Origin: Hyphomicrobium sp.
GTDB taxonomy: Bacteria; Pseudomonadota; Alphaproteobacteria; Rhizobiales; Hyphomicrobiaceae
Length of the DNA stretch: 64,000 nt
NCBI GenBank assembly: GCA_013141015.1
Contig: JABFRT010000013.1
Location: forward strand, 50,828-114,827
Direction of reading: 5' to 3'
Shown: positions 3,395 through 7,936 of the stretch, one piece after another
How the letters are laid out: every line of letters starts with the position of its first letter
Position numbering within the stretch: the stretch's first letter is position 1
Notes under the pieces: generated by a model
Database searches by the model: none
What the model saw: only the letters and a program-made list of their open reading frames with translations
Told to the model about the DNA's origin: nothing
Program-made: the position numbers and the translations under genes

Positions 3395-5533
3395 ATGGCA
3401 CGCGCAACGCAGGCAACGCAGAAGACCGAGGACAAGGACCAGGCCGCGGCCGAGACGCCGGACCGCGACAGTCCGCTTCTCGATCTGTCAGACTCAGCCG
3501 TCAAAAAGCTGCTCAAGACAGCCAAGGCCAAGGGCTACGTGACGCTTGACCAGTTGAACGCCGTTCTGCCGTCCGAGGAAGTGTCCTCCGACCAGATCGA
3601 AGACATCTACGCCATGTTGTCGGACATGGGCATCAACGTCGTCGAAACCGAAGACGGCGAGGAGAAGGAAGAAGGCGAAGCGGAAGCCGACGAAGAAGAA
3701 GGCCGCGCGCTCGTCCCGCAAAACTCTCTGATCAAGTCGGAAACCAAATCGGAACCGGCTGAGCGCACCGACGACCCCGTCCGCATGTACTTGCGCGAAA
3801 TGGGATCGGTCGAGCTTCTGTCGCGCGAAGGCGAAATCGCCATTGCCAAGCGCATCGAGGCTGGCCGCGAAGCGATGATCGCGGGCCTGTGCGAAAGCCC
3901 GCTGACCTTCCAGGCCATCATCATCTGGCGCGACGAGTTGAACGACGGCAAGATTTTGCTGCGCGATATCATCGATCTTGAAGCGACTTATGAAGGCCCC
4001 GAAGGCAAGGAAGTTCCGAACGCCGGCCCCGACGGCATCGCCATTCACGAGACGCCGGGCGCACCGCAAATTTCAGGCGCCCCCGAAGGTGACGTTGAAG
4101 ACGACGACGAATTCGAAAACGCCATGTCGCTTGCGGCTATGGAAGCCGAACTGAAGCCGAAGGTGCTTGAGACCTTCGACAAGATCGCCGACACCTACAA
4201 GAAACTGCGCAAGCAGCAAGACAAGAAGCTTGAACAGCAGGTGGCCGGCGAACAAGGTTCGCGCCAGCAGCAGAAGGCTTACGAAAAGCTGCGCGACGAA
4301 ATCGTGCTCGACGTCAAAAGCTTGTCGCTCAACAACAACCGTATCGAAAGCCTGGTCGAACAGCTCTATTCGATCAACAAGCGCCTGATCGGCCTTGAAG
4401 GCCGCCTGATGCGTCTGGCCGACAGCTATGGCGTGGCGCGTCAGCAGTTCATCGACGAATACTACGGCAACGAGCTCGACCAGGGCTGGCTCGACCGGAT
4501 GGGCACAAACGGCAAAAAGTGGACAGGCTTCGTCAAGGCCGAGCGCAACCAGATCGAATTGATCCGCGGCGAAATCCACGGCCTTGCGACCGACACCGGT
4601 CTCGAAATTCCCGAGTTCCGCCGCATTGTGAAGGCCGTGCAGAAGGGCGAACGCGAAGCCCGCCAAGCCAAGAAGGAAATGGTCGAAGCCAACCTTCGCC
4701 TCGTCATCTCGATTGCCAAAAAATACACCAACCGCGGCTTGCAGTTCCTCGATCTTATTCAGGAAGGCAATATCGGTTTGATGAAGGCCGTCGATAAGTT
4801 CGAGTACCGGCGCGGCTATAAGTTCTCGACGTATGCGACGTGGTGGATCAGACAAGCCATCACGCGCTCGATTGCCGACCAGGCGCGCACCATCCGCATC
4901 CCCGTGCACATGATCGAGACGATCAACAAGATCGTGCGGACGTCGCGCCAGATGCTGCACGAAATCGGCCGCGAGCCGACGCCGGAAGAGCTGGCTGAAA
5001 AACTCGCGATGCCGCTGGAGAAAGTCCGCAAGGTTCTCAAAATCGCGAAAGAGCCGATCTCGCTTGAGACGCCGATTGGGGATGAGGAAGACTCACACCT
5101 CGGCGACTTCATCGAAGACCGCAACGCGATCCTGCCGATTGAAGCGGCTATCCAGTCGAACCTGCGCGAAACGACGACGCGCGTGCTGGCGTCGCTGACG
5201 CCGCGCGAAGAACGCGTGCTGCGTATGCGCTTCGGCATCGGCATGAACACCGACCACACGCTCGAAGAAGTCGGCCAGCAGTTCAGCGTGACCCGCGAAC
5301 GTATCCGCCAGATCGAAGCCAAGGCGCTGCGGAAGCTGAAGCATCCGAGCCGGGATTTTAGCAGGATCACGCGGGTGTCCGGGCCAATGGCGCAACCCCT
5401 CCGAGACCCCGCGATCTTCCAACGGGTTTTTCTTGTTAACGGCGCTCCGACTTGGCCCAACGGTTACGACATGTGTCCGGACTGGCTGCAGATGGAAATG
5501 CAAAAGGCGGGGGAGATAGCGCTCCCGTCATGA
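3395..5533 (+). CDS. rpoD: Housekeeping sigma factor RpoD with a replaced C-terminal tail
   Basis: Primary sigma-70 factor (712 residues as read), directing RNA polymerase to -35/-10 promoters. Regions: 1.1 (about 25-85), acidic stretch (~90-110), 1.2 ([12 protein letters not shown]), non-conserved domain with a charged linker, regions 2.1-2.4 ([20 protein letters not shown]), 3, and 4.2 helix-turn-helix ([20 protein letters not shown]). Everything is canonical through HPSR (residues 650-653). After that the usual short SRKLRSFLD ending is replaced by 59 residues containing [12 protein letters not shown] and WPNG, which look like the C-terminal half of a DUF2442 protein. ATG 3395 follows AAGGA; the frame is open upstream to 3320 but without a ribosome site. 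The normal last codons persist at 5580-5612 (see the insertion entry). Confidence 0.95.
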
Positions 5534-5579
5534 CGCGATTAACTTGACAACGCACCTCAAATTCAAGTGCCCGAGCCGG
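5354..5579 (+). mobile_element. 226-bp insertion in the 3' end of rpoD, flanked by 9-bp direct repeats
   Basis: CCGAGCCGG occurs at 5345-5353 and again at 5571-5579. Joining base 5353 directly to 5580 gives HPSR-LMKLRSFLDN-stop, the near-canonical RpoD end, in frame. The intervening 217 bases plus one repeat copy therefore look like an insertion. In the rpoD frame it encodes a DUF2442-like tail and its own stop at 5531. No terminal inverted repeats or transposase are visible, so transposition, capture by illegitimate recombination, or a remnant of a larger element are all possible. The direct repeat and restored frame are seen; the mechanism is inferred. Confidence 0.8.
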
Positions 5580-5612
5580 TTAATGAAGCTCAGGAGTTTC
5601 TTGGATAATTGA
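5580..5612 (+). pseudogene. Displaced original C-terminal codons of rpoD
   Basis: Reads L-M-K-L-R-S-F-L-D-N-stop. KLRSFLD is the nearly invariant end of primary sigma factors. It is cut off from rpoD by the insertion at 5354-5579 and is not translated as part of the sigma factor in the present reading frame. Its preservation with an intact stop suggests that the insertion is recent. Confidence 0.8.
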
Positions 5613-5623
5613 CGAGGCGGACA

Positions 5624-7258
5624 TTGAAGTCAGTAATTCTCAAGATTGTCAGAGGTGGCACTTTTGGTGCCGCCTATTTGTTTTTCGCGTTCCTCGCTTG
5701 TTTGACGGCGGCTGCCCATGCAGCCGAACCGCGCTTTTGCGTGGTGCCGGTGCTCAACGGCAAACCGACGAAGGCCGATGTCGGCGACGCGCATCGGATG
5801 ACGTACCCAAAGCACGAGATGCCTTGGCTGCCGAGCATTCTGTTTATGCCATTCAATCGCGGAGGCCAGTGGCTCGTCGACAAGGACCGTCGGTATTCGG
5901 CGGTTCAGTTGCCGTTTCCAGATAGCTACCTCGACTCTGGCCGATGGGTGGAAGAGCCCGGCACCAAGCGTATCATTGCAACACCCTTTTGGCACACCCG
6001 CCCAGCGATCCTCGCGCTCAACCAGGGCGCACCACAATTCGAAGAGCTGCGCATACCATCCAATCCGGGCATGCTGCGATTCTCCAACCCGATTGTCTTT
6101 GAACCGACAGGCGAAGTTCTGCTGACTTCATCTGCGGGTACGATCTTCGTTGTGAAAGGTGCCGAAGTCGCGCCGTGGCCACACTCCGCACTCTTGTCGA
6201 ACCGGTTTTCGACCTGGCGCGAAATGGCCTACTCTCGCGAACTCCAGGCGTTGGTGATTGCCGAGCCTGACGGCGACGGACGCTCGTCGCGCCTGTTCGT
6301 CATTCAAGACGGGGCCGTGACCAATCTCGGAAAATTCGCGGCGGCGGGTGTTCGGCTGTCGGACATCGAGGGAGCTGCATCGTCACTGATCATTGGCGCG
6401 ACTAAAGTTGCGCGGATCGACAGGCATGACAGGGGGGCAAGGCCTGCCCACTTCTCATTGCAGCCACTCCTAGCCGAGCCAATCCCTCCAATTTCACCGC
6501 GATTATTCTATTCGAAGCTGCACAAGGCACATTTCTATTTTGGACCTGCCGGACTAGCGAAAGAAGACGCTTTCACATCGACAGCGGATGGCATCTGGGT
6601 TTCAATTAAGAACTTCCTGGCCAGATCATCTGCCGCCAACTCTGTCGCCTACCTCAAAGAACCCATCGATGCGCAATGGTATCGCGTAACACGCGAAGGG
6701 ATCATCGCTATCCCAGGTGGAACTCGCAAAGGGATCGTGTGGACCGACTTCGAAACAAGCAAAGTCGTCGATTTCGCCGATCTCAGTGAAACGTTTGCGA
6801 TCTCGGGCGACGTTCTATCTGTTTTCGATGGCGCTACGCTTTCAATTGTACCGGAAACCAAGCACCAAAGTCTCGGCAAACCCAAACAATTTGCGGGTCA
6901 AACAACCATTGGACGAGCCCTCTTTGCAACCCACAGCGCCGTTTTTGCCTTGTCAAAAGAGCGAGCGACTAAACTCGAAGCGCCCGGATTGATTTTGAAT
7001 GACTATGAATTGATAGCGATGAAAGACTGGCCGACAGCTAGAGTCGTTCTGGTCGCCACAACTCGGGGCTTGGTCGCCGTCGATGAGAATCTCGGCATAC
7101 AGGTCGTCTCCTCCAACATCGAATTCACTGCCGTTGATAACTTTGTTGCCCAGAACCCCGAAAGCGGCGACATGATCATGACCACAAAAGACCGGATTGT
7201 CGTTGTGGTCGACACACTCAAGCATGGCCGTGACATATGCAGTCGGCCAGCCGATTGA
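5624..7258 (+). CDS. Large secreted protein of unknown function
   Basis: About 544 residues, not recognised. A hydrophobic N-terminus (residues ~12-28) ending AAHA|AEP is a convincing Sec signal peptide, so a periplasmic or extracellular location is inferred. The mature part is rich in short beta-type stretches with recurring V-hydrophobic-G and DG turns (for example AVDENLGIQVV, VVVVDTLKHG), which would suit a beta-propeller, but no repeat could be aligned with confidence. There are no catalytic motifs. The start is uncertain: TTG 5624 has GAGGCGG just upstream, while TTG 5609 overlaps the old rpoD stop. Base composition is slightly lower in GC than its neighbours. It ends before a repeat-rich gap. 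Confidence 0.75.
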   Translation: MKSVILKIVRGGTFGAAYLFFAFLACLTAAAHAAEPRFCVVPVLNGKPTKADVGDAHRMTYPKHEMPWLPSILFMPFNRGGQWLVDKDRRYSAVQLPFPDSYLDSGRWVEEPGTKRIIATPFWHTRPAILALNQGAPQFEELRIPSNPGMLRFSNPIVFEPTGEVLLTSSAGTIFVVKGAEVAPWPHSALLSNRFSTWREMAYSRELQALVIAEPDGDGRSSRLFVIQDGAVTNLGKFAAAGVRLSDIEGAASSLIIGATKVARIDRHDRGARPAHFSLQPLLAEPIPPISPRLFYSKLHKAHFYFGPAGLAKEDAFTSTADGIWVSIKNFLARSSAANSVAYLKEPIDAQWYRVTREGIIAIPGGTRKGIVWTDFETSKVVDFADLSETFAISGDVLSVFDGATLSIVPETKHQSLGKPKQFAGQTTIGRALFATHSAVFALSKERATKLEAPGLILNDYELIAMKDWPTARVVLVATTRGLVAVDENLGIQVVSSNIEFTAVDNFVAQNPESGDMIMTTKDRIVVVVDTLKHGRDICSRPAD

Positions 7259-7669: not shown

Positions 7670-7936
7670 ATGGACGCCAAAGTCGACACCCGCACCCCCG
7701 ACCTCCACATCGTGCTCACCCACGAAGCGTGGGTGATTGTGCGTTCGGCGTCGGCGACTTGGCGGGATTTCCAGGAGACGTTTGCGGATTTCACGACCTC
7801 GCTCGGGCCGATGGGGCTCGACGAACTGCTCGAAACATTTGAAGCCGAGTGGCCGGAAGTTTTGGAGCGCTACGCCCAAGACATCCGCACCTTCGCCACA
7901 ACTGCCAAAGACGGCCAGTCACTAATGATCACCTAA
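7670..7936 (+). CDS. Orphan ~88-aa protein, paralogue of the gene at 10661
   Basis: Small acidic soluble protein of no recognised family and without a signal peptide. It is clearly homologous over its whole length to the protein at 10661-10945: both have TPxLHI, a VR-x strand, DFQxxxAxFTTSxGP, a DxxLxTFExEWPxxL helix and IRTF, with about half of some 67 aligned positions identical. Conservation between the copies supports real coding. The ATG at 7670 is used because homology starts just after it; an upstream GTG/ATG at 7637 would lie inside the intergenic repeat. The two copies bracket the cytochrome operon at 8008-10437. Confidence 0.65.
   Translation: MDAKVDTRTPDLHIVLTHEAWVIVRSASATWRDFQETFADFTTSLGPMGLDELLETFEAEWPEVLERYAQDIRTFATTAKDGQSLMIT

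Follow-up and report, generated by a model that had tools for sequence, protein, structure and literature searches.

An rpoD gene of Hyphomicrobium joined in frame to half of a DUF2442 antitoxin gene, the probable remnant of a DUF4160-DUF2442 module behind rpoD

Introduction

The described system closest to the locus reported here is DhiTA of Dickeya dadantii, a DUF4160/DUF2442 pair whose toxin inhibits growth, an effect not seen with the two together (PMC8198452); the accessible part of that report makes no mention of rpoD. According to the accessible parts of two further sources, a Thermus plasmid gave no transformants in a version without the DUF2442 gene (PMC12724237), and the DUF4160/DUF2442 pair is also listed in a marine survey (PMC12654330). 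Here, we describe modules in relatives of a Hyphomicrobium species that share with DhiTA the domain pair and the gene order, with the toxin gene first, and that are located behind rpoD, the gene of the primary sigma factor. The window, by which we mean the entire 64,000 nt stretch of Hyphomicrobium DNA that was analyzed, differs from both: the toxin gene is missing, and of the antitoxin gene the C-terminal half alone is present, fused to rpoD. By sequence, this tail belongs to the antitoxin type. Directly upstream of it, where the DUF4160 gene of a DhiTA-type pair would lie, there is none at the rpoD locus, and the sole DUF4160 match found in a search of the genome is on contig C18, behind gyrB.

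Results and discussion

A primary sigma factor with an exchanged C-terminus

The body of rpoD occupies positions 3395-5353 on the forward strand, encodes sigma-70 regions 1.1 and 1.2, the non-essential region and regions 2, 3 and 4, and ends with ...KLKHPSR. Six sigma-70 Pfam families scored above cut-off through region 4, and with regions 1.1, 1.2, 2, 3 and 4 all recognized in this way the protein has the composition of a group 1 primary sigma factor. It is the only full-length rpoD of the genome (G000), the other RpoD match in a protein search being a paralogue of 33% identity. Up to the codons for HPSR the gene is 88% identical at the nucleotide level to that of the nearest relative, G011, and the RpoD proteins of the genus likewise have the six families intact through region 4. 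Behind HPSR (position 5353) the resemblance ends: the genus proteins finish with the ten residues SRKLRSFLDN, whereas the window protein continues with 59 residues of DUF2442. The reading frame runs from the ATG at 3395 to the stop codon at 5531-5533 (whole gene 3395-5533), and the tail, 59 codons and the stop at 5354-5533 on the forward strand, corresponds to the C-terminal half of a gene for a DUF2442 (DhiA-like) antitoxin in frame with rpoD, taking the place of the conserved KLRSFLD(N/S) end. The swap of the C-terminus for 59 foreign residues, first proposed in the initial annotation of this stretch, is thus present in the assembled sequence. Many activators contact region 4.2 through residues that presumably precede HPSR; these would be retained and the last ten residues lost.

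An exact 9 bp repeat, CCGAGCCGG, had been noted around the exchanged part, and both copies are in place on the forward strand, at 5345-5353, where they form the P-S-R codons of RpoD, and at 5571-5579, with a spacing of 226. Reading across with 5354-5579 omitted gives HPSRLMKLRSFLDN and a stop codon, just as that annotation had it. Given the exact 9 nt match at both ends and a skipped reading that ends almost like other sigma factors, one could imagine that 5354-5579 is bypassed between the two CCGAGCCGG sites, by the ribosome or in an RNA step, with HPSR-LMKLRSFLDN as the outcome. Yet the downstream copy has LM in place of SR, as expected of a dead copy, and similar dead copies are located behind other rpoD genes that need no skipping, so that we find this explanation scarcely credible.

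Relationship of the tail to DUF2442 proteins

Earlier, the tail had been called DUF2442-like by eye, a reading that alignment with the DUF2442 proteins encoded behind rpoD in relatives bears out. From its first residue onwards, the tail aligns with the C-terminal half of these proteins, with identities of 63% in G082, 47-59% in five other genomes of the family and 41 and 45% in two proteins of G028. In this alignment (A1), 12 columns are identical in all rows, the tail agreeing there with the other eight. When the RpoD end plus tail was used as a protein query, two DUF2442 frames behind rpoD in G028 were matched through the tail (E = 5.3e-10 and 1.1e-9), and at the DNA level the tail shares a 62 bp stretch of 82% identity with G082 and a 54 bp stretch of 89% identity with G100. 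It covers positions 28-86 of an 89-position DUF2442 profile, which includes the tail itself; a complete DUF2442 domain as in DhiTA is not present in the window, the alignment starting in the middle of the domain. The tail on its own gave no Pfam match, and because Pfam alone reports nothing it is named by comparison with the relatives. Among solved structures the profile gave only a weak match to NE0471 (2auw, E = 0.021), and a single DUF2442 protein as query matched nothing meaningful. Structure models of RpoD region 4 plus tail were too poor for the tail to be judged, with mean pLDDT values of 44.5 (one sequence) and 45.2 (13 sequences) and low confidence in the tail.

The full form of the gene is found in relatives. 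The rpoD stop codon of G028, G082 and G100 is closely followed by a DUF4160 gene, behind which lies a DUF2442 gene, as supported by Pfam matches to PF13711 (DUF4160; E = 1.6e-23 and 3.9e-20 in the two proteins tested) and PF10387 (DUF2442; E from 3.6e-5 to 1e-11 in the three proteins tested).

Ordinary rpoD ends in relatives

We compared the rpoD ends of 29 relatives' loci, all of which terminate in HPSRSRKLRSFLDN or in ...DS directly before the stop codon. The supposition that relatives possess empty sites also proved right: the KLRSFLD(N/S)-stop pattern is present in 21/21 other genomes of the genus. In the family it was found in 85/103 genomes, including the window's own, where it is the displaced copy discussed below; the 18/103 family genomes without it, and the 38/397 order genomes without it, may contain further odd rpoD ends. 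The tail, in turn, is present in 1/22 genus genomes, namely that of the window, and a search with RpoD residues 645-712 against 5.8 billion proteins yielded seven candidates, of which only the window's own protein (1 member, 1 contig) has the junction. With an extreme C-terminus so alike in the 29 loci (the last residue being N or S), a natural replacement would be a test of what this end is needed for.

A fused protein that is a singleton among 5.8 billion might also have been made by assembly or binning, if an ordinary rpoD end, the DUF4160 gene and the first half of the DUF2442 gene had dropped out of the contig and RpoD were in reality normal. The genome consists of 69 contigs (97.6% completeness, 3.9% contamination), and the missing parts are exactly those of an intact module. 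We nevertheless regard such an artefact as unlikely: neither a further rpoD end nor a fitting DUF4160 gene was found on a stray contig, the sole DUF4160 match being the one behind gyrB, and exact repetition at the site is limited to 9 bp, which is short for confusing an assembler, although the lost sequence may share a longer word.

A second, displaced rpoD 3′ end

Behind the stop codon of the tail, a spacer at 5534-5554 leads to a second rpoD 3′ end at 5555-5612, both on the forward strand. This displaced end includes the codons for KLRSFLDN and the stop, and contains the second copy of CCGAGCCGG; since 226 is not a multiple of 3, that copy is out of the RpoD frame. To detect such ends we built a profile from the terminal 75 nt of 135 distinct rpoD ends and searched with nhmmer downstream of rpoD in 144 loci, among which some genomes occur twice, and in the window. 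The window gave a 57 nt match at 5555-5611, corresponding to model positions 18-74 (E = 5.1e-8), compared with E = 0.19 for the best match on the reverse strand. The displaced end agrees with the live end of G082, 13 nt past the stop codon included, at 55/63 positions and with the live end of G011 at 37/58 positions. With a tail that matches DUF2442 frames and a second repeat that matches the rpoD-end profile, the fusion is, as judged from these comparisons, more than a chance resemblance.

In view of the 57 nt match and the identity to G082, the 9 bp repeat is the best-kept part of a displaced rpoD end and not a target duplication. The initial annotation had seen here a self-contained insertion of 226 bp with a 9 bp duplication at its edges. 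The exact 9 bp at both edges stands; the homology is longer than 9 bp, with the repeat lying inside a diverged copy of the rpoD 3′ end that is out of frame, and the insert has no paired inverted ends. Nor did the search for other copies in the genome bear this idea out: the one full match is the insert itself, and the other 11 matches are short, at most ~27 bp. A 226 bp mobile element that transposed into rpoD would explain the exact direct repeat at both edges, but in addition to these points the insert corresponds to half of a type of gene that elsewhere occurs complete behind rpoD, and we consider transposition very improbable.

Other displaced rpoD ends were obtained at E < 0.01: two in G082 (= L137, same contig), one in L080 and one in L079. 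In most loci with a module behind rpoD, no displaced end is recognizable, and the start points of the stubs differ between loci. In the Hyphomicrobium locus L053 (G082:C62, 3115-4565), two further rpoD 3′ ends plus a region-4 fragment follow behind rpoD and its module; this fragment, further downstream in G082, is identical at 137/173 positions, and it looks as if several arrivals had piled up behind this rpoD. In L080 (G114) and L079 (G044), the displaced ends are located downstream of rpoD without a recognized DUF4160-DUF2442 pair between, and other insertions may have used the same place at the rpoD 3′ end. As further cases of displaced ends, L057 (E = 4.3) and L180 (E = 0.32) were too weak and were set aside.

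DUF4160-DUF2442 modules behind rpoD

In the family we found 88 rpoD ends, the window's counted, and examined 82 places other than the window. In 6/82 of these loci, from five genera, and in G028 of another family, a DUF4160-DUF2442 pair starts 12-34 bp past the rpoD stop codon; three of these seven pair-bearing genomes had supplied the profiles used. In one of the rpoD-linked pairs (G060), the toxin frame is without its first residues.

The tail alignment was also used to scan 84,980 species genomes, with 80/93 relatives kept; in 60/80 loci (53/73 without the seven query-supplying genomes), rpoD lies upstream on the same strand within the flank. These counts describe a subfamily and not all DUF2442 proteins, the query having been built from rpoD-linked members. 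A DUF4160 toxin gene or its remnant at most 60 bp from the rpoD stop codon, followed by the antitoxin gene, was found in 19 of the 60 rpoD-linked loci; truncation or splitting of the toxin gene was seen in L136, L140, L179, L190 and L201. In a further 23, of which 22 are titled Devosia, a DUF2442 gene alone was recognized at most 130 bp from the stop codon; in the remaining 18 it lies within 700 bp (8 loci) or further away (10 loci). The order sample of 397 genomes, in which the rpoD places of six genomes were read directly and the strong matches (E ≤ 1e-20) were placed, contained 19 genomes with a strong match, the window's included, with rpoD upstream on the same strand within ~2.3 kb in 18/19, or 16/17 when the query rows of the window and G028 are left out. 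The remaining one, G278, is on a contig that starts 1 kb upstream.

The survey thus reveals a toxin-antitoxin subfamily that is lodged behind rpoD in many genera and that has left copies of the rpoD end in some genomes, and the 3′ ends of essential genes likely harbour such modules. The series of decay, from the intact module via a broken toxin gene and an antitoxin gene only to the fused remnant, allows the fate of these modules to be followed.

Much of the linkage is a matter of descent. When all 46 rpoD-linked loci were considered, the distances of RpoD and of the antitoxin proved to be correlated (Spearman 0.50, permutation p 0.0005), so that much of the association between rpoD and antitoxin is inherited. 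The correlation is 0.86 (p 0.0005) in the 27 antitoxin-only and other loci, mostly from Devosia, and rho is 0.14 (p 0.11) in the 19 loci with rpoD, toxin and antitoxin genes. In L150 and L151, the antitoxins are 89% and the RpoD proteins 71% identical, in a pair of metagenome-assembled genomes with alike contig names that may hold an error. The natural reading of these comparisons would be that modules are transferred between genomes while intact and become established behind rpoD, where the toxin gene then decays. A search for a mobile vehicle of the DUF2442 subfamily gave no candidate: the 15 matching records from plasmids all remained under 60% identity, and phages were not represented. To see whether rpoD 3′ ends move along with the module, we ran a mosaic test on third codon positions, in which the last 25 codons were set against 100 upstream codons; it gave a mean difference of -0.017 for the 210 pairs of 21 module carriers (>0.25 in 1.4% of pairs) and of -0.045 for the 2211 pairs of the 67 family loci of the first survey (>0.25 in 0.1%).

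In Devosia, the DUF2442 gene is found alone and close behind rpoD, without a recognized toxin gene, and has been inherited together with rpoD (e.g., L172, L184, L195, L205). This lasting companionship of rpoD and a lone DUF2442 gene could be taken as a sign that the half antitoxin of the window has been selected as a working RpoD C-terminus, for instance one that would bind a DhiT-type toxin or alter the contacts with activators or the beta flap. A frame that stayed open for 59 codons, and a tail that agrees with the eight other rows at each of the 12 invariant columns, would also be in line with such a role. But only half of the DUF2442 domain is left, invisible to Pfam; the tail is modelled with low confidence, in a model that is poor as a whole; and no other tail-bearing RpoD was found among the 5.8 billion proteins. 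A selected chimera therefore appears quite improbable to us.

Proposed origin of the fusion

We think it probable that the in-frame fusion of rpoD with the C-terminal half of a DUF2442 gene, together with the displaced rpoD end, is the remnant of a DUF4160-DUF2442 module behind rpoD that was cut by a deletion. A horizontally transferred module of this kind would have arrived at the 3′ end of rpoD, with the rpoD end becoming duplicated beyond the module; a deletion from the live end of rpoD through the toxin gene to the middle of the antitoxin gene would then have joined the two frames by chance. The protein, with region 4.2 kept up to HPSR, would still work as the primary sigma factor. With the toxin gene missing and the antitoxin reduced to half, the tail has most probably ceased to act as an antitoxin and would be a passenger that neutralizes nothing. 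The window would accordingly represent the far end of module decay, at which the deletion reached into rpoD itself.

What the sequences show directly is that rpoD is fused, that its tail is of the DUF2442 type, that a second rpoD end follows, that 21/21 other genus genomes have the ordinary end and that relatives have intact and decaying arrangements. The deletion we infer, because no intact module behind rpoD, the expected intermediate, was seen in the genus and because the toxin gene is wholly absent from the window locus. Being far nearer to G082 than to G011, the displaced end is not simply the old end of the genus's own gene, which calls for an array or for a cassette flanked by rpoD ends. 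A module may have come to lie between two rpoD ends by the single crossover of a circle carrying an rpoD end, by illegitimate recombination anchored on homology or by a site-specific enzyme; the insert itself is without an integrase, as half a DUF2442 gene, the spacer and part of an rpoD end account for all of it. Several findings speak against this origin: the order of genes native to this place is apparently restored only another 2 kb downstream, past an orphan gene; most loci with a module behind rpoD show no recognizable displaced end; in L080 and L079 a displaced end occurs in the absence of the pair; and much of the association of rpoD with the antitoxin is inherited.

This organization resembles the arrangement of the rhs and cdiA genes, which have displaced toxin-immunity modules behind them. 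There, too, the incoming cassette rewrites the 3′ end of the gene and the old end is pushed downstream as a dead stub. Rhs and CdiA are toxin carriers, whereas the gene concerned here is an essential housekeeping gene, and the mechanism is deduced from stubs in a few loci. A broader view, which we offer tentatively and hold to be rather doubtful, would be that DhiTA-type modules spread in Alphaproteobacteria as cassettes behind housekeeping genes, above all rpoD, by anchoring on the conserved end and rewriting it, and that the cell studied here runs on a sigma factor that ends in half an antitoxin.

Gene order downstream of rpoD

The orphan gene is an ORF of 544 aa at 5624-7258 on the forward strand, which begins 11 bp past the displaced rpoD stop codon and has, by eye, a signal-peptide-like start. 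No homologue was found in the other 102 genomes of the family, and a longer frame from 5609 gave no Pfam match. In G011, a stretch of 103 nt that is 75% identical to window positions 7763-7865 begins ~175 bp past the rpoD stop codon. If this match marks the common gene order, the window would seem to carry ~2 kb extra compared with G011, consisting of the half DUF2442 gene, the second rpoD end and the orphan ORF.

Modules behind other genes

Of the 80 loci kept in the scan, 20 have no rpoD upstream, and in 12 of these the module adjoins ORFs that are of another kind or without assignment. A search for repeats around the modules of the 20 loci revealed no recognizable duplication of gene ends; L142, L153 and L199 had higher repeat scores, but these look like ordinary repeats. 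The module is located 4-45 bp behind rsmB in L185, L186 and L203 and 322 bp behind rsmB in L206, directly behind pyrF in L164, ~320 bp behind groEL in L152 and 110 bp behind lepA in L147, in each case on the same strand. In L159, a GroEL-like C-terminus was seen by eye 100 bp upstream of the module. The genome of the window itself possesses a second DUF4160-DUF2442 pair, located ~30 bp behind gyrB (Pfam DNA_gyraseB_C; G000:C18, locus L042:1-1740).
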